DNA from: Aquabacterium olei
GTDB lineage: Bacteria > Pseudomonadota > Gammaproteobacteria > Burkholderiales > Burkholderiaceae_C
Assembly (NCBI RefSeq): GCF_003100395.1
Contig: NZ_CP029210.1
Span: 372,001 to 436,000, forward strand
Length of the DNA: 64,000 nucleotides
Direction: 5' to 3'
The first letter of the stretch is position 1. Every line of letters starts with the position of its first letter. Under the pieces are notes generated by a model that was given only the letters and a program-made list of their open reading frames with translations, was not told where the DNA came from and did no database searches. Below, piece by piece: positions 6,209-17,132 of the stretch. Both the position numbers and the translations under genes were made by a program.

Positions 6209-7930
6209 TCAGGCCACCTTCTTGCGGCGCGCCATCGCAGCCAGTTCCTCGTCGCGCAGGTCCTTGCGCAGGATCTTGCCGACGTTGCTCATCGGCAGGT
6301 CTTCGCGGAACTCGATGTACTTGGGCCGCTTGTAGCCCGTGAGCTGCTCCTTGCAGTAGGCGGCGACGTCGTCCTCGGACAGGCTGTAGTCCTTGCGCAC
6401 CACGAACAGCTTGACGGCCTCGCCGGAGCGTTCGTCCGGCACGCCGATGGCACAGCACTCGGTCACGCCAGGGTGCAGGCTCACCACCTGCTCGATCTCG
6501 TTGGGGTACACATTGAAGCCCGACACCAGGATCATGTCCTTCTTGCGGTCCACGATCTTGATGAGACCGTCTGCCGCCATCACCCCGATGTCGCCGGTGC
6601 GGAAGAAGCCGTCGGCCGTCATCACCCTGGCGGTCTCTTCGGGGCGCTTCCAGTAGCCGGCCATCACCTGCGGGCCGCGCACGGCGATCTCGCCGGCTTC
6701 GCCCTGGGCCACGGGCTGGCCCTGTTCATCGAGCAGCGCGACCTCGGTGGAGGGCAGCGGATAGCCGATGGCGCCGTTGTACTGGCGGTTGTCGAGCCGG
6801 TTGACGGTCACCACGGGCGAGGTCTCCGACAGGCCATAGCCTTCGACGATGGGCACGCCCGTGATGCGCTGCCAGGCCTCTGCGGTGGCCTGCTGCACGG
6901 CCATGCCGCCGCCGTTGCACACCTTCAGGCGCGAGAAGTCGAGCTGCTCGAAATCGGGCTCTTCGACCAGCGCGTTGTAGAGCGTGTTGACCGCGGGGAA
7001 CTGGGTGATCTTGAACTTCTTGAGCGTCTCGATCAGCTTGCCGACGTTGCGGGCGTTGTCGATCATCACGTTCAGCGTGCCCATGCGTGCGCTCAGGAAG
7101 TAGCACACCGTCAGCGCGAACACGTGGTACAGCGGCAGGGCCACCACGTTGACCAGCTGGCCCTGCACCTTGTCGAGCTCGGGCTTGAACCAGGCCTCGC
7201 ACTGCAGGATGTTGGCCACCAGGTTGCGGTGCGTGAGCGTGGCGCCCTTCGACACGCCGGTGGTGCCGCCGGTGTACTGCAGGAAGGCCACATCGCTGCC
7301 GGTCAGGGGCGGCGGGGTGAAGGGCAGGCCCTTGCCTTCGGCCAGCGCCTGCTTGAACGGGGTGACCTGCAGCCGGCTGCTGGACGGCAGCTTGAAATCG
7401 ATCACGTGCTTGTCCACATTGCGCGACTTGTACGTGATCCAGGGGCCCTTGATCGCACCAAACACGTCGCCCAGCGAAGCCAGCAGAAGGTGCTTGACGG
7501 GCGTGCGGTCGATCACTTCCTGCACCGTCGGGCCGAAGTACTCGAGCACGATGAGGGCTTCGACCTCGGCATCGTTGAGCTGGTGTTCCAGTTCGCGCGG
7601 CGTGTACATCGGGTTGACGTTGACCACCACGTGACCCGCCCGCAGGATGCCGGCAATGGCCACGGCGTAGTGCGGGATGTTGGGCATCATCACGGCGACG
7701 CGGGCGCCTTTCGAGAGCTTGCGGGCCTGCAGCCAGGCGGCCAGTTGCCGCGACAGGGCGTCGACCTCGGCGAAGGTCCAGCGCGAGCCCAGATAGGCCA
7801 TCATGTCCGTGCCCGCGTGCGCGCGGAAGGCGGCATCGAGCAGCGACACCAGCGAGGGGTGGCTGTCCGGATCGATCGTGGCCGGGACGCCGGGTTCGTA
7901 CTGCTTCAACCAGGGTTTGACGTTGGTCAT
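6209..7930 (-). CDS. fadD: Long-chain fatty-acid--CoA ligase
   Basis: Activates fatty acids to acyl-CoA with ATP through an acyl-adenylate. The AMP-binding signature YTGGTTGVSKGA, the GYGLSETSP motif, the TGD motif (FFRTGDIG) and the hinge DRKKDMILVSGFNVYP are all present, and the catalytic lysine lies in MSNVGKILRKDLR near the end. The open frame runs 60 codons upstream, but the ATG at 7930 gives an N-terminus beginning MTNVKPWLKQYEPG and the usual length (573 residues). A perfect CAATCTG/CAGATTG palindrome 30 bases upstream is a likely operator. The enzyme feeds the beta-oxidation genes at 14-16 and 23-29 kb. Confidence 0.95.
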   Translation of the reverse strand: MTNVKPWLKQYEPGVPATIDPDSHPSLVSLLDAAFRAHAGTDMMAYLGSRWTFAEVDALSRQLAAWLQARKLSKGARVAVMMPNIPHYAVAIAGILRAGHVVVNVNPMYTPRELEHQLNDAEVEALIVLEYFGPTVQEVIDRTPVKHLLLASLGDVFGAIKGPWITYKSRNVDKHVIDFKLPSSSRLQVTPFKQALAEGKGLPFTPPPLTGSDVAFLQYTGGTTGVSKGATLTHRNLVANILQCEAWFKPELDKVQGQLVNVVALPLYHVFALTVCYFLSARMGTLNVMIDNARNVGKLIETLKKFKITQFPAVNTLYNALVEEPDFEQLDFSRLKVCNGGGMAVQQATAEAWQRITGVPIVEGYGLSETSPVVTVNRLDNRQYNGAIGYPLPSTEVALLDEQGQPVAQGEAGEIAVRGPQVMAGYWKRPEETARVMTADGFFRTGDIGVMAADGLIKIVDRKKDMILVSGFNVYPNEIEQVVSLHPGVTECCAIGVPDERSGEAVKLFVVRKDYSLSEDDVAAYCKEQLTGYKRPKYIEFREDLPMSNVGKILRKDLRDEELAAMARRKKVA

Positions 7931-8052: not shown

Positions 8053-10212
8053 TCACGCTTCCCGGGCGAGGGTTTCCAGCTCTTCGGGGTGCATCAGGCG
8101 ACCGCCCCACAGCACGCGGATGTCATCGCCTTCGCGGAGCGAGTGCTCCCGGTGGGTGATGATGAAGCGCGCGCAGCCCAGGGCCTGGATGTGGTCCTGC
8201 ACACGCCGCTCGGTGGCGAAGTCGAGGTGGCTGGTGTATTCGTCGAGCAGCAGGAACTGCGGCTGTTTGTAGAGTGCGCGGGCCAGCAGCACGCGTTGCT
8301 TCTGCCCGCCAGACAGGCTTGTGCCCATGTTGCCGACCAGCGTCTGGTAGCCCATGGGCAGGCGCGCGATGTCGTCGTGCACGCAGGCCAGTTCGGCGGC
8401 GTGCCGTACCTTCTCCGGCGTGGCGTGCGCGTCGTGCATGGCGATGTTGTCGTAGAGGTTGCCGGAGAACAGCTGATCGTCCTGAAAGACGGTGCCGATC
8501 ACCGAGCGGTGGGCTTCGGCACCCAGCTGGGCGAGCGGCACGCCGTTGAGCCGCACTTCGCCCGATTCCGGCGTGACCTGGCCTGCCAGCACCTTCATCA
8601 GCGTGGACTTGCCGCCGCCCGACGGACCCACGACCGCGAGGGTCTGCCCGCTGCGCAGGGTCAGGCTGATGTGGTCGAGGACGGGCTGCGATTGCGGGTC
8701 GTATCGGTAGACGACGTCATGCAGGCTGAGCGTCATGCCCCCTTGCGGCAAGGGGGTGGCCGCACGCTGCATCTGCTGCGCAGACGAGGGGGCTTCGGTC
8801 GGCGTGAGCACGATGTCAGCGAGCCGGTCGCCCTGAACGCGCAGCAGGCGCAGGTTGATGAGCCGCTCGATGAAGTCGCCGACGCGTTGCAGGAACTGGC
8901 CCTTGTACGCAAGAAAGGCAACGAGCATCCCGATGGAGAAGTGCTCGTCGATGATCATGCTGGCGGCGAGGTACAGCACCGTGGCCTGTTCGAGCGCGCC
9001 GACCGTGCCGTTGATGCCCTGATGCAGCAGGTTGATGCGCTCCTGCCTGACGCGGGCGTTGACGATGGCGGCCTGCTGGTTCATCCAGCCCGCCACGCGC
9101 CATGCCGGCCGGGAGAAGAACTTGATCGCATGGATGCCTCGCAGCGTCTCCAGCAGAAAGGACTGTGTCTGCGCCTGCCGCACGATGAGCTCTTCCGCGG
9201 CGCGGCGGTACGGGCCGAACACCGCGAGCCGCACGCCGAGGTAGCACACGGCCACGCCCAGCACGATGCCGCCGAGCAGGGGGCTGTACGCGAACATCAG
9301 GCCCAGCGTGATGAGGCTGACCAGCCCGTCTAGCACCGCCTCCACCAGGGTGTGGGTGAGGGTGTCCTGAATGGACTCGACGGCATGCATGCGCGACAGC
9401 ACATCGCCGGTATGCCGGCGCTCGAAGTACGACAGCGGCAGCTGGATCAGGTGACCGAAGACGCGCGTGCTGCTGGCGAGCTGCCAGCGCAGACCGGTGC
9501 CCAGCGCCACCCAGCTGCGCAACAGCCGCGTGGCCAGCGACATGAGGGCGAGCAGGCCGAGCGCCAGGGCCAGCACCACGAGCAGGGGCTGATCGCGGCT
9601 GACGATGACGTCGTCGATGACCCACTGGCTGAGCAAGGGCATCAGCAAGGTGAACACCTCCAGCACCACCGACAGCACCGCCATCTGTGCGAACGAACGG
9701 CCCAGCCCGGGGTGGCCGGCGAACAGGCTGCGAAGGCGCCATGGCGTGCGCTCACGCCGGGGTTGAAACGCAGCGGCCGGAGACAACTCCAGCGCGACGC
9801 CGGTGAAATGGCGCCCGGCTTCGGCCAGGCTCATGCGCCGCTCGCCCACGGCCGGGTCGTGCACCGTGACCCGCTGGCCGTCCACCGCGACCAGCACCAC
9901 GAAGTGGTTCATGTCCCAGTGCAGCACGCAGGGGCGTTGCAGTGCCTCCAGTTCGTCAAGTTCCAGCCGCACGGCCCGGGCGGACAGCTTCAGTCTGGCG
10001 GCCATGTCCATCAGCACCGCCAGGGTCGTGCCGCGCGCGGACACCGCAAAGCGCTGCCTGAGCGTGTGCAGGTCGGTGTCGTGTCCGTGGGCGCCCAGCA
10101 CCATGGCCAGGCAGGCCAGGCCGCATTCGGTCGCTTCGGTCTGCAGGACCACCGGCACACGGGGGCGTCGCCATCCCGACGACGACGGGGCAGAGGAGGA
10201 GGAAGAGATCAT
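8053..10212 (-). CDS. Peptidase-containing ABC exporter (C39 peptidase, membrane and ATPase domains)
   Basis: Inner-membrane transporter that cleaves double-glycine-type leaders and exports the peptide. Residues about 17-140 form a C39 cysteine peptidase with the triad apparently intact: Cys30 (TEATECGLACL), His103 (DMNHFVVL) and Asp119 (VHDPAVG). A six-helix membrane domain follows (about 190-465), then the ATPase with Walker A GPSGGGKST, signature LSGGQKQR and Walker B FLLLDEYTS. The ATG at 10212, 11 bp after the HlyD-like stop, is preferred over a start 20 codons upstream that would overlap that gene (719 residues). An intact catalytic Cys separates it from RTX-type exporters with a dead C39-like domain. 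The 61-codon gene at 13252 is the only candidate substrate seen. Confidence 0.94.
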   Translation of the reverse strand: MISSSSSAPSSSGWRRPRVPVVLQTEATECGLACLAMVLGAHGHDTDLHTLRQRFAVSARGTTLAVLMDMAARLKLSARAVRLELDELEALQRPCVLHWDMNHFVVLVAVDGQRVTVHDPAVGERRMSLAEAGRHFTGVALELSPAAAFQPRRERTPWRLRSLFAGHPGLGRSFAQMAVLSVVLEVFTLLMPLLSQWVIDDVIVSRDQPLLVVLALALGLLALMSLATRLLRSWVALGTGLRWQLASSTRVFGHLIQLPLSYFERRHTGDVLSRMHAVESIQDTLTHTLVEAVLDGLVSLITLGLMFAYSPLLGGIVLGVAVCYLGVRLAVFGPYRRAAEELIVRQAQTQSFLLETLRGIHAIKFFSRPAWRVAGWMNQQAAIVNARVRQERINLLHQGINGTVGALEQATVLYLAASMIIDEHFSIGMLVAFLAYKGQFLQRVGDFIERLINLRLLRVQGDRLADIVLTPTEAPSSAQQMQRAATPLPQGGMTLSLHDVVYRYDPQSQPVLDHISLTLRSGQTLAVVGPSGGGKSTLMKVLAGQVTPESGEVRLNGVPLAQLGAEAHRSVIGTVFQDDQLFSGNLYDNIAMHDAHATPEKVRHAAELACVHDDIARLPMGYQTLVGNMGTSLSGGQKQRVLLARALYKQPQFLLLDEYTSHLDFATERRVQDHIQALGCARFIITHREHSLREGDDIRVLWGGRLMHPEELETLAREA

Positions 10213-10223
10213 GCGCGCCTGAA

Positions 10224-11501
10224 TCAGAGTCGGCCGGTGAAGGCGAAGAGGGGATCGAAGAGCCAGCGCCACAAGGCCCGGCGCTCGATCTCGATGTCGG
10301 CCACCAGGGTGTGGCCGCTGCGCAAGGGCAGCGCCTGGCCGTAGGCCACCACCGTGTCGCGTTCCAGCGCCACGTGAACCAGAAACACCGCCCGGGTGTC
10401 CTGCCGGTTGCCGCCCAGTTCGCTGGCCGGCACATCGGCCAGCGGGATGGCCGTGATCTGCCCCCGGTGCTGGCCGAAACGCTGGTAGGGAAAGGCGTCG
10501 TAGGCCAGGCGCACGGTCTGCCCCGGCCGCAGAAAGCCCATGGCGGTGCTGGGCACGCGCAGCACCGCTTCAAGCGGCGAGGCGGCCGGGACCACGCTGA
10601 GCACCGTGGCCCCGCCGGCCACCGTCTGCCCTTCCGCGAGACGCAGGTTGGTGACGGTGCCGTTCACCGGTGCGCGCAGCAGCATCACCTGCTCGCGGCG
10701 GCGCTGAGCCTGTTCGGCATGCAGCGTCAGGGCATCGCGCTGCCGCAGCGCCGATTGCGCGGCCTCGTCCGCCAGCAGGTGCTGCCGATCGGTCTGCACC
10801 TGCGCCAGTTCGGCCTGCATCTGGGTGGACTGGCGCCGCAACTCCTGCTGGCGCGAGGCGTGCTGCGTGACGAGTTGCAGCTGCTGCGCGAACTGGAGCT
10901 CCGACACGATGCGGTCGTCGCGCAGGGGGCGCATCTGCTCCAGCAGGCGCTCTGCCACCGCTTGCTGCTGAGCCTGCAACTGCAGCTCCGTCTGAAGCGA
11001 GCGCGCCGATTGGCGCAGGTGGCTCGTGCGCTCGTCCAGGCCGGACAGCCGGGCCTGCAGGCTGTCATGACGCCGGGCCGCTTCGGTGCGCAAGGCCTGC
11101 TGCCGTTCCCGCAGGCTGACCTCGACCTGGCTCAGGGCATCGCCCAGATCGCTGTGCTGGGTCTGGTGGATCTCGGCCAGGACATCACCGGCCCGCACGG
11201 TCTGGCCTTCTTTCACGGGCAGCCGCATCAGCACCCCGGTGCCGGGCGCCACCAGCGTGGACACGCCGGACCGGGCCTGCAGCACGCCGGTCACGCGCTC
11301 CTTGCGGGTGTGCTGTCCCCAGATCAGCACGCCGAGCACCGCCAGGGCCAGGGCCACCACCAGGGCGGTCCACACGCGGGCCCCGACGGGCCCGATCGAG
11401 AGGGCGGGGCCTGTCAGGGTGCCGACGCGCGCGGCCAGCGCTTCAGGGCGGAACAGGGGGCCGTCATCACGCGGCGGCGGGCTGGGGGGCGTGGTGGTCA
11501 T
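10224..11501 (-). CDS. HlyD-family periplasmic adaptor (type I secretion)
   Basis: Membrane-fusion protein linking the ABC exporter to the outer-membrane channel. It has a short cytoplasmic N-terminus, one membrane helix at about residues 43-62 (ALVVALALAVLGVLIWG), a biotinyl-lipoyl half-motif (LPVKEGQTVRAGDVLAEI), a long Gln/Arg/Ala-rich coiled-coil hairpin (about 120-270) and the second lipoyl half (LLRAPVNGTVTNLRLAEGQ). It is 425 residues long. The start ATG overlaps the TolC-like stop as ATGA, so the two are translationally coupled. The frame is open further upstream, but that part is the shadow of the TolC-like gene. Confidence 0.93.
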   Translation of the reverse strand: MTTTPPSPPPRDDGPLFRPEALAARVGTLTGPALSIGPVGARVWTALVVALALAVLGVLIWGQHTRKERVTGVLQARSGVSTLVAPGTGVLMRLPVKEGQTVRAGDVLAEIHQTQHSDLGDALSQVEVSLRERQQALRTEAARRHDSLQARLSGLDERTSHLRQSARSLQTELQLQAQQQAVAERLLEQMRPLRDDRIVSELQFAQQLQLVTQHASRQQELRRQSTQMQAELAQVQTDRQHLLADEAAQSALRQRDALTLHAEQAQRRREQVMLLRAPVNGTVTNLRLAEGQTVAGGATVLSVVPAASPLEAVLRVPSTAMGFLRPGQTVRLAYDAFPYQRFGQHRGQITAIPLADVPASELGGNRQDTRAVFLVHVALERDTVVAYGQALPLRSGHTLVADIEIERRALWRWLFDPLFAFTGRL

Positions 11502-12994
11502 GGCGTCGCGAGGTCGCTCGTCGGGTGGTCGATCTCCGCGAGCCAGGGCGCGATGTGCGCCGCGTCCAGCTTGCCGAGCAGGGCCAGGATCCGGGTGCCC
11601 GATGTCATGCGGGCCACCTGGCTGTCGGCCACCGCCAGCGCCGCGTCGAGCACGGCCTGCTGGGCACGGAGTCGGTCGCTGGTGGGGCGCAGGCCCGCAA
11701 GCCACGCGCGGTGGACGGCGTCGAGGGCGGCTTCGGCGTGTCGCAGCCACGCGGTTCGCGCCCCCAGGTGTTGCTCCTCGAGGCGGTGGGTCTCGATGGC
11801 CGCCCGCAGGTCCCGTGCGAGTTCGGCCACCACCACGTCATGGCGGGCCAGGGCCTGCACCAGTTCGGCGGCCGCGATGCGCTCGCCATCGCCCAGCGTG
11901 TCGGCACCGAAGAGGGTCCATTGCGCACTCACACCGATGCTGTCGTTGCGCAGGGACTGCCGGTCGGCGACCCCGTCGGAGCGCGGCGTGGTCTGACGGT
12001 ACCCCCGGCTTGCAGAGGCCTCCACCGTGGGCAGCCAGCGCGCCGCCTGCCGCGCCTCGACCCGGGCCTGGGCGGCGCGGATCTGGGCCTGCGCCGCCTC
12101 GGCCAGCGGGTGTGCGCGCACGAGGACGGCCACGTCCCCACCCTCCCTGTCATGCCAACGCGGGGGAAAAGGGCCCGGGGCCGGCGTGTGCAGCCCGCGC
12201 GGCAGCGAGGCGGTCGGCCCGACCAGGCGGCGAAGGGTCAGCAGTTGTTGGGCCGCGTCACCTTGATCCTGCAGCCACTGGTCCTGCACCTGCAGGGCGA
12301 GCGAGCGGGTGGCCTGCACGTCCACCAGCGTGAGCAGGCCTGCGGTCAGCAGGCGCGCCTGAACCTGTTCGAGCGCCTCGAGTTCGGCGATCTGCCGGGC
12401 GCGGATGGACGCCCTGGCCTGCGCATGCAGCCCGGCCAGGTAGGCCTGGCTGACGCCAAGGGCCAGCTCGGACCGGGTGGCCAGGGCCTGTAGGCGAGTG
12501 GCCTGTCCCGTCGCCTGCAGGCCCTGGACTTCCCGTTGCTCGGCGGGGCGCCACAGCGGCATGCTCAGTGTGAGGCTGTGGCTGGTCGCGGGCGCGTCGA
12601 CCGCCCGACCGTCACCGACCTGCCGCCCGCGCTGCCCGCTGGCCTGGGCATCCAGGCGCGGCCACGTGGCCTCTCGTGCGCCCCGGCGATGACGCGCTTC
12701 CGCGGCGTCGGCCTGAGCCTCGGCCTCTGCCAGCGCCGGGTTGTCGATGACGGCGTCCAGCCAGCGTACCCAGGCCGGGGCCCCTGAGCGCGGCGGTGGC
12801 GCATCCGCCGCCACGGGGGCCTGCGCCAGCCGCAGGTGCCAGTCGAGCTGCAGGGCGGGGGCGAAGCTGGGGACGCCGCAGAGCAGGCTGCCGGCCCACA
12901 CGGCCGGGCCAAGCCCGCGCAGGCACCCGAGGGCCCGATGGACGGGCACAAGGGCAGGGCACTCGACAAACAGCCTGAATCGGTTTCCGTGCAT
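11498..12994 (-). CDS. TolC-family outer-membrane channel of the peptide exporter
   Basis: Outer-membrane efflux channel completing the type I system. The sequence shows two internally similar halves rich in Ala, Gln, Leu and Arg, with the repeat hallmarks NPALAEAEAQADAAEARHRR and HPLAEAAQAQIRAAQARVEA, typical of TolC helical barrels. The N-terminus after MHGNRFRLFVECP has a hydrophobic stretch (GPAVWAGSLLCGVPSFAPA) that reads as a signal peptide. The start at 12994 is preferred; an ATG at 13045 adds 17 residues and cannot be excluded. It is first in the operon, and its stop overlaps the HlyD-like start. Confidence 0.9.
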   Translation of the reverse strand: MHGNRFRLFVECPALVPVHRALGCLRGLGPAVWAGSLLCGVPSFAPALQLDWHLRLAQAPVAADAPPPRSGAPAWVRWLDAVIDNPALAEAEAQADAAEARHRRGAREATWPRLDAQASGQRGRQVGDGRAVDAPATSHSLTLSMPLWRPAEQREVQGLQATGQATRLQALATRSELALGVSQAYLAGLHAQARASIRARQIAELEALEQVQARLLTAGLLTLVDVQATRSLALQVQDQWLQDQGDAAQQLLTLRRLVGPTASLPRGLHTPAPGPFPPRWHDREGGDVAVLVRAHPLAEAAQAQIRAAQARVEARQAARWLPTVEASASRGYRQTTPRSDGVADRQSLRNDSIGVSAQWTLFGADTLGDGERIAAAELVQALARHDVVVAELARDLRAAIETHRLEEQHLGARTAWLRHAEAALDAVHRAWLAGLRPTSDRLRAQQAVLDAALAVADSQVARMTSGTRILALLGKLDAAHIAPWLAEIDHPTSDLATP

Positions 12995-13045
12995 ACGTTT
13001 CCCAGTATCCCGGCGGGTTAAGAATTCCGGGGTGGGAATATCCAT

Positions 13046-13251
13046 GCATTCCTGTTGTGACGGGCATAAAAGCCGTGCGCAGGCAGATTGGATTAATCCT
13101 TTCAGGTTATCTTCCGCTTGTTCGATCTGTCATTTCTGTTTTCCTGATTGAAAGAAGTCTGCGGGTATTGATGGGTTTTATTCTGGCGCGGGGTGCGTCA
13201 TATTCGGCCCTGGGCTGCAAGCCCTTTATTCAATCCAGAACGGAAGACATC
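13046..13251. promoter_or_regulatory. AT-richer divergent promoter region between exporter operon and precursor gene
   Basis: About 200 bp that is visibly less GC-rich than both flanks, with runs such as GATTAATCCTTTC and TTTCTGTTTTCCTGATTG. It must hold the promoters of both the leftward exporter operon and the rightward peptide gene; I could not fix individual -35/-10 pairs. CGGAAGA at 13241-13247 is the probable ribosome-binding site of the peptide gene. The reading frame of the peptide is open back to 13057, but that part has atypical codon use. Confidence 0.55.
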
Positions 13252-13437
13252 ATGAAAACCCTTTCCCTCCAAGAAGTTCAGCAAGTCAGCGGCGCGGCCC
13301 TCGACCCGGAGCTCGGCCTGTTCAAGCCCACCGGCATTGCCTTGATCGACGCCATTCACAAGCAGGAATGGAACACCTATGGGCGCCCGCTCTACAACAC
13401 GTTTGCCGTGCTGTTGGGCTTTCCGAAAGCGCCCTGA
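13252..13437 (+). CDS. Candidate microcin/bacteriocin-like precursor peptide with double-glycine-type leader
   Basis: 61-residue peptide. Its first 15 residues, MKTLSLQEVQQVSGA, match the microcin V leader MRTLTLNELDSVSGG position by position: M, basic, T, L, S/T, L, amide, E, aliphatic, two variable, V, S, G, small. Cleavage after Gly-Ala at 14-15 would release about 46 residues starting ALDPELG. The mature part has no cysteine, near-balanced charge, and a C-terminus rich in aromatic and hydrophobic residues (TFAVLLGFPKAP). The ATG at 13252 has GGAAGA five bases upstream. It is divergent from a C39-peptidase/HlyD/TolC operon and ends at a strong terminator. Export and leader cleavage are well supported by context; antimicrobial activity is inference. 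Other roles (signal, adhesion) are possible. Confidence 0.8.
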   Translation: MKTLSLQEVQQVSGAALDPELGLFKPTGIALIDAIHKQEWNTYGRPLYNTFAVLLGFPKAP

Positions 13438-13460: not shown

Positions 13461-13500
13461 GAAAGTAAAAAACCCCGCAGATGCGGGGTTTTTTACTTTC
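13461..13500. terminator. Bidirectional terminator after the precursor gene
   Basis: Perfect 18-bp inverted repeat (arms 13461-13478 and 13483-13500) around an AGAT loop: a CCCCGC/GCGGGG core flanked by A-run and T-run. It separates the convergent peptide and TetR genes and would give the short peptide transcript a stable 3' end. Confidence 0.93.
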
Positions 13501-13519: not shown

Positions 13520-14185
13520 TCACGCGGTTTTCTGGAGCGCCGTGGCGTTGGCGGAAGATAACCACTGGTCCAGTCCCGTCCACGCGTAGAGGTTGTGATC
13601 GATCAGGGTTTCGACAGGAAGGTCGAAACCGCGCTCGATCCACAGCATCGTGGTATGACTCACCATGCCGATGCATCCGGAAATGATGAGGTCGATATTC
13701 GGGTATCCCTGCAGGGCAGGGTACTTCTGGCGAAACCGCGCGCGAAGCAGGTCCACGATGAAGGCGTATTGCTGCGCCACGCGGTCCTCGGCGGTCAGCC
13801 CACTGTTCGAGGCATCCTGAATGAGGATGCGGGCGCGACGGGGGTCCTGTCGGATCTGCTCGAAGAAGGTCTGCAGCGCCCCCCGGGCGCGTGTCAGCAG
13901 GTCAGGGGGCAGGCTGCGGATGGCCTCCTCCACCGCCATGGACACGTCCATCGTCGTCCGATCGTGCACGTGCTTGAAGCACTCGTGAACGGTGGCGAAG
14001 TGTTCGTGGAAGTAGCGGTCTGCCAGGCGCGCCTGCGCGCAGATCAGGCGCATCGTCGTCAGCCGGTAGCCGTGCACCCCGAACACTTCGTAGGCTGCCT
14101 GCAGCAGCCTTTCGTGTCGCTGCGCCCGGCGTTCATCGGCGCTCACGCCGCTGTAGCGACGCTGCGAGATCGTCGGTGTCGTCAT
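13520..14185 (-). CDS. TetR-family transcriptional regulator
   Basis: Repressor with an N-terminal HTH (RLLQAAYEVFGVHGY, then TTMRLICAQARLADRYFHEH) and a C-terminal ligand domain containing FFEQIRQDPRRARILIQDA. It is clearly a paralogue of the TetR at 3330-4052, with the same RRY-x-GV lead-in and DPRRAR block. An ATG at 14185 gives 221 residues; one at 14218 is also in frame, and neither has a convincing ribosome-binding site. It lies 65 bp downstream of an acyl-CoA dehydrogenase on the same strand and may be read from the promoter at 16.15 kb. It is convergent to the peptide gene; nothing ties it to the peptide beyond adjacency. Confidence 0.9.
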   Translation of the reverse strand: MTTPTISQRRYSGVSADERRAQRHERLLQAAYEVFGVHGYRLTTMRLICAQARLADRYFHEHFATVHECFKHVHDRTTMDVSMAVEEAIRSLPPDLLTRARGALQTFFEQIRQDPRRARILIQDASNSGLTAEDRVAQQYAFIVDLLRARFRQKYPALQGYPNIDLIISGCIGMVSHTTMLWIERGFDLPVETLIDHNLYAWTGLDQWLSSANATALQKTA

Positions 14186-16400: not shown

Positions 16401-17132
16401 ATGACGCTGGTCGTTCCGTCCCTGTCCACGCCGTCTGTCGCCCTGTCTGCCGGCACGCTGGCCGAGCGGGTGTACGCCCAGATCAAGCAGCTGATCTTCG
16501 ATTTCGTGCTGTTACCGGGCGATCGGTTCTCGGAGAGCGATCTGGCCAACCGTGTGCAGGTCAGCCGCACGCCACTGCGCCAGGCATTGCAACGCCTGCA
16601 GCGCGAGGGGTTCCTGCTCGTGTTCCCCAAGAGCGGGTGGCAGGTCGCCCCGCTCGATTTCAACGCCTTCGACCAGCTCTACGACCTGCGCATGCTGCTC
16701 GAAACGCACGCGGTGGTCCGCCTGTGCGAGGCCGATCCGCGTCCTTCGCTCGATGAGCTCAACCGTGTGTGGCTGGTGCCCGAGGCCGAGCGTCAGCACA
16801 CCGTGTTGACGATCGACCGTCTTGACGAGGCCTTCCACACCGCCTTGGTGGAGGCCGCGGGCAACGCCGAGATGGCGCGTGTGCACGCCGATGTGACCGA
16901 CCGCATCCGCATCATCCGCCGGCTGGATTTCACCAAGCCGCAGCGTGTGGAGGCCACGTACGAGGAGCACGCGCAGATCCTGCGTGCCGTTACCCGGCGT
17001 CGTGCCGACGAGGCGCAGCGACTGCTGCGCGCCCACATCGAGCACAGCAAGCTCGAGGTGCGGCGGATCACGATCGAGACGCTCCAGAACGCCCGGCTGC
17101 GCATGGCCGAGGCGCACACCCCGCAGGGCTGA
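16401..17132 (+). CDS. GntR-family (FadR/FCD subfamily) transcriptional regulator
   Basis: Winged-HTH regulator with an FCD ligand-binding domain. The GntR HTH occupies about residues 18-85 (RVYAQIKQLIFDF, then FSESDLANRVQVSRTPLRQA, then LQREGFL). The all-helical C-terminal domain carries the metal-ligand-type pattern (RLDEAFHTALVEAAGN, YEEHAQILRAVTRR, LLRAHIEHS). It is 243 residues, normal for the group. It is divergent from the acyl-CoA dehydrogenase, but its effector (commonly a carboxylic acid in this subfamily) and targets are unknown. It converges with a small unknown gene 10 bp downstream. Confidence 0.93.
   Translation: MTLVVPSLSTPSVALSAGTLAERVYAQIKQLIFDFVLLPGDRFSESDLANRVQVSRTPLRQALQRLQREGFLLVFPKSGWQVAPLDFNAFDQLYDLRMLLETHAVVRLCEADPRPSLDELNRVWLVPEAERQHTVLTIDRLDEAFHTALVEAAGNAEMARVHADVTDRIRIIRRLDFTKPQRVEATYEEHAQILRAVTRRRADEAQRLLRAHIEHSKLEVRRITIETLQNARLRMAEAHTPQG

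Follow-up and report, generated by a model that had tools for sequence, protein, structure and literature searches.

A peptide gene beside a C39 exporter operon

In the window, the whole 64,000-nucleotide stretch analysed here, a short precursor gene lies 3.0 kb from a divergent exporter operon that encodes TolC, HlyD and a C39-peptidase ABC exporter (PCAT), and is convergent with a gene for a TetR-family regulator (Table 1). The ATG of the precursor gene is preceded by GGAAGA. An alternative in-frame GTG at 13057 would give an ORF of 126 aa; the similarity of ortholog proteins starts at the ATG and not at this GTG. The perfect inverted repeat beyond the stop codon, which carries a T-run, is a likely terminator separating the peptide gene from the TetR gene. 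From this start and this repeat, the peptide gene reads as its own short transcript. A consensus terminator scan with a loop minimum of 3 did not list this repeat.

Table 1 Features of the peptide locus, in window coordinates
Feature	Position	Strand	Basis and remarks
Precursor gene, 61 aa + stop	13252..13437	+	codon-level selection; leader rank 1/4857
Double-glycine-type leader, residues 1-15, last two Gly14-Ala15	13252..13296	+	leader matrices, ortholog comparison
Predicted mature peptide, residues 16-61, 46 aa	13297..13434	+	AlphaFold2, conserved residues
Perfect 19-bp inverted repeat with T/A runs	13461..13500	.	candidate terminator, peptide gene / convergent TetR gene
TolC-type outer-membrane channel	11498..13045	-	PF02321 3e-34; TIGR01844 6e-32, under cut-off; start perhaps near 12994
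HlyD-type membrane fusion protein	10224..11492	-	PF13437 1.5e-17; TIGR01843 1.4e-40, under cut-off; start inferred
C39-peptidase ABC exporter (PCAT)	8053..10212	-	PF03412 7e-35, PF00664, PF00005; start inferred
TetR-family regulator	13520..14182	-	syntenic neighbour of peptide gene; domain scans, synteny

The translation bears out the leader features named in the original prediction (L-x-L, E8, V12-S13-G14 and a small residue at 15), with L-S-L at residues 4-6, E at residue 8 and V-S-G-A at residues 12-15. A comparison of the leader across relatives, which the same prediction had proposed, showed that the cleavage site is retained in the aligned orthologs as V[SAT]G[GA]. The 46-residue product after residue 15 lacks Cys, also as predicted, and has a mass of 5.10 kDa and a net charge of about 0 at pH 7. 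AlphaFold2 modelled the precursor with a single long helix over residues 30-55 plus a short leader helix (residues 6-12), at a mean pLDDT of 82 and a pTM of 0.57.

The PF03412 match of the PCAT is nearly full length (2-131 of 133), and the Cys, His and Asp motifs that mark active C39 domains are visible in it by eye rather than by alignment to CvaB. Genome-wide, three C39 domains were detected, one of them strong (6.8e-36) and the others at 9.9e-5, just above the Pfam cut-off, and at 6.5e-4, below it. The best NCBIfam score of the PCAT was to the NHLP exporter model TIGR03796, under the cut-off of that model, and in PADLOC it matched mad3 and mad8 only; PADLOC returned no match for the peptide.

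Leader rank and codon-level selection

The leader score at 13252 was 40.0 bits, first among the 4857 start codons of the window and followed by a runner-up of 10.8 bits, using a 15-position matrix trained on 45 leaders from which the window's own subfamily was left out. Triplet-shuffled window sequence (640 kb) yielded no match of at least 14 bits, in this case with a matrix that included the window's subfamily.

Eight orthologous genes depart from the window's at 17-27 of the 46 core codons, with 1-7 residue changes, whereas in the leader they depart at 6-10 of 15 codons, with 5-8 residue changes. Core dN/dS was 0.02-0.09 between the window and these eight orthologs and 0.02-0.66 in the remaining 28 ortholog pairs, the highest values involving L036 and L037. 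When five other orthologs were aligned, the variable columns of the peptide gene numbered 6, 5 and 19 at codon positions 1, 2 and 3. These substitution patterns indicate that the peptide core is under purifying selection, strongest when measured from the window, and that selection on the leader is weaker. Recent transfer of the peptide gene is unlikely, because core dS relative to the window ranges from 0.75 to 2.9.

We then set the window against six exporter-linked loci, using the best aligned piece in each comparison. The peptide core was identical at 43-45 of 46 residues (93-98%), above every neighbour compared: an acyl-CoA-dehydrogenase-like protein, named by eye, reached 82-91% across the six loci, an AMP-binding enzyme, present in four of them, 87-90%, the PCAT 67-74%, TetR 56-62%, HlyD 45-51% and TolC 33-36%. 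The leader matched at 7-10 of 15 residues. Two further loci without an adjacent exporter retained 41 and 39 of the 46 core residues, and in remoter relatives of the same subfamily (A, described below) core identity fell to roughly 50-70%. The alignments thus indicate that near-identity of the core is a property of the loci compared and not of subfamily A as a whole.

A peptide family with confident genome matches in one genus

A first protein search returned 21 family proteins, the window's own among them. Out of 146 candidates, a profile built from 13 sequences then retrieved 106 proteins at E ≤1, counting the window's own; 105 of the 106 scored ≤4e-7. The original prediction had called the peptide new, which holds for its naming only, since 105 further proteins match the profile: the family is unnamed, and its members, where named in the sources, are labelled hypothetical or uncharacterized. 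By eye, they split into two subfamilies, A and B, which have in common the leader and the core motif LIDxIHxxEWNxYGxPL and differ in their cores. In subfamily A, to which the window's peptide belongs, ALDPELGLF... stands ahead of this motif; in subfamily B the motif follows straight after GG. Among 64 aligned members, E39 and L47 are conserved in all 64, H36 in 63, D33 in 62 and Y43 in 61. Some B-type relatives (P0092-P0095 and P0102-P0106), from metagenome-derived sources, have acidic tails.

The statement that the mature part belongs to no recognized family held up against Pfam, NCBIfam and PDB, where all matches were non-significant. Pfam gave no match for the window peptide and a best value of 0.065 for any relative, and the best values in NCBIfam and PDB were 0.0067 and 0.22, respectively. 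The class IIb lactobin A/cerein 7B model TIGR03949 matched 13 of the 64 relatives weakly (best E 0.0067) and did not match the window peptide, for which no partner peptide was seen. We found no description of the family in the titles and abstract openings of open-access literature on Aquabacterium with bacteriocin or microcin, nor in those of open-access double-glycine peptide literature, and the words Burkholder, Aquabacterium, Betaproteobacteria and Pseudomonadota are all absent from the main text of PMC11494933.

Every confident genome match of the peptide family falls within one genus. Within it, 18 of 42 genomes carry an A- or B-type peptide (20 copies, E ≤1e-17). At the family level 3 of 399 genomes match, all three from this same genus; at the class level 2 of 274 match, the second weakly and within a 330-aa frame; and at the phylum level 3 of 398 match, namely the own genome and two weak cases. 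The records named for seven loci are Aquabacterium commune, fontiphilum and lacunae, a 'Comamonadaceae' isolate and three MAGs. Plasmid or phage carriage of the peptide was rejected, as neither set gave a match.

One exporter lineage with exchangeable cargo

Defining a PCAT ortholog by at least 64% identity over at least 600 residues, we found one in 24 of the genus's 42 genomes, a set that contains the window's own genome. An A or B peptide is present in 16 of the 24 genomes with the PCAT and in 2 of the 18 without it (Fisher p = 4e-4, which is optimistic given that the genomes are related). The two exceptions are G014, with a completeness of 53%, and G019, where a PCAT fragment is present; counting G019 as PCAT-bearing gives p = 8e-5, with the same caveat of kinship. 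Each of the remaining eight PCAT genomes has a different GG-leader cargo ORF. In 20 of the 24 genomes a GG-leader ORF of one kind or another is found within the exporter locus, the exceptions being G003, G337, G024 (A. lacunae, as judged from equal coordinates) and G336. In G003 and G337, peptide and exporter each lie close to a contig end. In A. lacunae (peptide locus L037) the peptide sits beside TetR; linkage of peptide and exporter is not absolute, because the PCAT of this genome sits on a different contig.

Judged by eye, the cargo of this exporter lineage falls into seven or more GG-leader core types: A, B, C (L082-L085), D (L079, L094), E (L086, L087), F, which contains Cys (L088, L089), and G (L078). 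In a tree of the PCATs, each of the smallest supported groups contains a single cargo type, with support of 100/100 for B (five rows, one with an unlinked peptide), 100/98 for D, 100/100 for E and 100/100 for F. Three rows of type C group at 100/100, at 99/96 once L085 is added, and C and D unite at 97/92. Loci of type A form two groups, one of five rows (94/90) and one of L035 and L092 (95/100), and a single A group is not supported. Of the 23 inner branches 11 are unsupported, and the window row is long-branched with an unsupported placement.

Search for immunity genes, receptors and regulatory sites

Locus comparison, with a codon-position test of one recurring ORF, revealed no maintained ORF besides the peptide in the gaps near the peptide gene. 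The window gap ORFs 13032-13151 (+) and 13107-13220 (-) have no match in other loci, and apart from the peptide itself and its overlapping frames no window gap ORF recurs. Several gap ORFs do match one another within the close relatives L031-L034 and L036; the recurring ones overlap TolC or the upstream block. The one examined at codon level, a hydrophobic 64-aa ORF (L032:9701-9895), was considered as an immunity gene and rejected, as it shows no codon pattern in five loci: its region has 44, 40 and 43 variable columns by codon position and 17 gap columns, compared with 6, 5 and 19 variable columns for the peptide gene. We read this region as conserved non-coding DNA. Within the three nearest genes on each side, the only neighbours shorter than 250 aa are the TetR regulator and a 243-aa ORF (16401-17132), which reads by eye like a GntR-type regulator.

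No receptor was found linked to the window's peptide type. A histidine kinase near B-type peptides was rejected as a receptor; its link to the B peptide is not independent, because its close orthologs (79-100%) are confined to five genomes of one PCAT clade. A membrane-EAL protein that adjoins the B peptide at three loci was also discarded, since a 75% homolog occurs in G001, a genome without B. In L038, L039 and L040, the B peptide is flanked by a homocysteine methyltransferase gene on one side and the membrane EAL protein on the other, and an MHYT-GGDEF-EAL protein is encoded near it; the domains were taken from L039 and the homologs assigned by clustering.

An upstream motif search covering 22 of 31 upstream regions returned a 12-base and an 18-base motif that each beat six of six random sets, in a comparison in which the set contained kin, the random sets were run with half the number of search starts and the site positions varied. 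A GTTAACCC-like site occurs about 100-200 bases upstream of several cargo types, weakly so in the window (13088-13099), and may reflect chance and kinship. In L035 (10001-10186) and L092 (10048-10233), the peptide gene alone is inverted against both neighbours relative to the window, and the upstream region differs. An invertible segment was rejected as an explanation, as flanking inverted pairs are short in the window (13 bp), L031 (13 bp) and L033 (15 bp at 87%) and none was found in L035 or L092.

Probable export route and proposed role

A GG-type leader and a linked C39 exporter place the peptide in the general class of C39-exported double-glycine peptides. Gram-negative peptides of this kind are easily filed as microcins from the leader alone; for the window's family, leader and exporter fit a microcin, whereas selection and gene content point elsewhere. 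A water bacterium with one strong C39 exporter and one such peptide found makes a clean case for separating weapons from signals or community factors.

TolC is usually encoded elsewhere in class II microcin systems, and its presence in the operon sets the window apart from the usual microcin V arrangement. According to the sections of PMC9746304 used here, a class II microcin locus comprises precursor, immunity protein, PCAT, membrane fusion protein (MFP) and TolC, cores and immunity proteins are variable while PCATs and MFPs are conserved, and verified precursors measure 75-120 aa. The window shares with these microcins (microcin V type; CvaAB-TolC), as described there, the GG/GA leader, a C39 PCAT, an HlyD-type MFP and TolC. 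It differs in having no maintained immunity ORF near the peptide gene and in a core conserved over the exporter among related loci, the reverse of that description. The original prediction had called the mature product shorter than typical class II microcins; the precursor is short as well, at 61 aa against a range that is one of verified cases and no strict rule. The label of a microcin-V-type peptide therefore stands for the export route, given leader, cleavage site and adjacent C39 exporter, and does not extend to a killing microcin, given the missing immunity ORF, the conserved core and the short precursor.

From leader and gene arrangement, export of the peptide by the neighbouring PCAT along a microcin-V-type route is very probable. 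The 15-residue leader would dock on the PCAT encoded 3 kb away, at its C39 peptidase domain. Cleavage after Gly14-Ala15 would then free the 46-residue peptide, uncharged and mostly helical, to exit via the PCAT-HlyD-TolC channel. Outside, it might target cells from its own group, serving as a signal or as a biofilm or community factor. We tentatively prefer such a role to that of a killing microcin, and slightly favour it over a bacteriocin, because the core is conserved, an immunity gene is missing and the gene appears to form its own transcription unit. We keep this reading lower, and a bacteriocin higher, because dN/dS is uneven and remoter relatives diverge. Against a signal, the window type has no linked receptor, and the kinase and EAL genes near B peptides give no independent link.

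Small GG-motif peptides with a C39 exporter have a biofilm role in Synechococcus elongatus, as shown for EbfG1-4/PteB in the sections of PMC4997328 used here, and the window resembles that system in its gene content, namely in these two components. The Neisseria Naps are described, in the parts of PMC11798529 drawn on, as cationic microcin-like GG peptides with undetectable antimicrobial activity; their system has NapP, a C39 peptidase by prediction, together with a FapF-like channel and the putative immunity gene napI. Compared with that account, the window peptide is uncharged and has a PCAT-HlyD-TolC exporter, and no immunity gene was found at the locus. NHLP leaders are long. The window's likeness to NHLP exporters lies in the best-scoring, sub-cut-off model of its PCAT, and the difference in a leader of 15 residues.

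A bolder extension of the signal reading, which we regard as rather unlikely, would be a genus-wide communication system in Aquabacterium-like bacteria, in which one PCAT-HlyD-TolC exporter serves at least seven core types that are block-replaced by lineage, and the window's type is kept almost constant in several species by selection for a shared signal, with no arms race and no immunity genes. The uneven dN/dS and the divergence of remoter relatives weigh against this extension as well.

A true class II-type bacteriocin is a serious possibility, if somewhat short of even: the same export would deliver a helix that inserts into the membranes of related bacteria, with protection by an unlinked gene or absence of the target. 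A GG/GA leader with PCAT, MFP and TolC in a single locus is what such a peptide would have; the one predicted helix is hydrophobic at both ends by eye, and the core divergence of remoter relatives points the same way. Cargo types are swapped on one exporter lineage and include glycine-rich peptides and peptide pairs whose sequences resemble bacteriocins by eye; such exchange between lineages would also fit antagonism. However, no maintained immunity ORF adjoins the peptide gene, the core is conserved above leader and exporter in related loci, the net charge is close to 0 and matches to bacteriocin families are not significant. An immunity gene may lie elsewhere, or none may be needed where producers have no target.

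We consider it improbable that the peptide is a secreted metal-binding or surface-structure peptide, in which the face D33-x-x-H36-x-x-E39-x-x-x-Y43 would bind metal or pack helices into an assembly. The near-invariance of these four residues within the predicted helix speaks for it, as does a CorA-type Mg2+ transporter gene (L041:10250-11218) that adjoins a B peptide and has a clustered homolog in L042. By contrast, the five window neighbours scanned include no metal transporter, the CorA link is limited to two related loci, and conserved faces have many uses. Last, a spurious ORF or chance leader, to be considered for a short frame in G+C-rich DNA with abundant shadow ORFs, is hardly credible and was rejected in view of in-frame purifying selection in two comparisons, the first rank of the leader, synteny and the 105 further proteins.

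Other double-glycine peptides of the exporter lineage

Type D consists of two different adjacent GG-leader peptides (L079:10981-11440 and L094:5883-6319), which resembles a two-peptide system; the exporter adjoins in L079. Cys-containing GG-leader peptides lie next to the exporter at L088:3132-3326 and L089:8830-9039, with a B-type peptide about 25-30 kb away on the same contig. In A. lacunae (G024), a tandem pair of GG-leader peptides of another type, identical in protein sequence, is found at L096:6241-6420 and 6585-6764.
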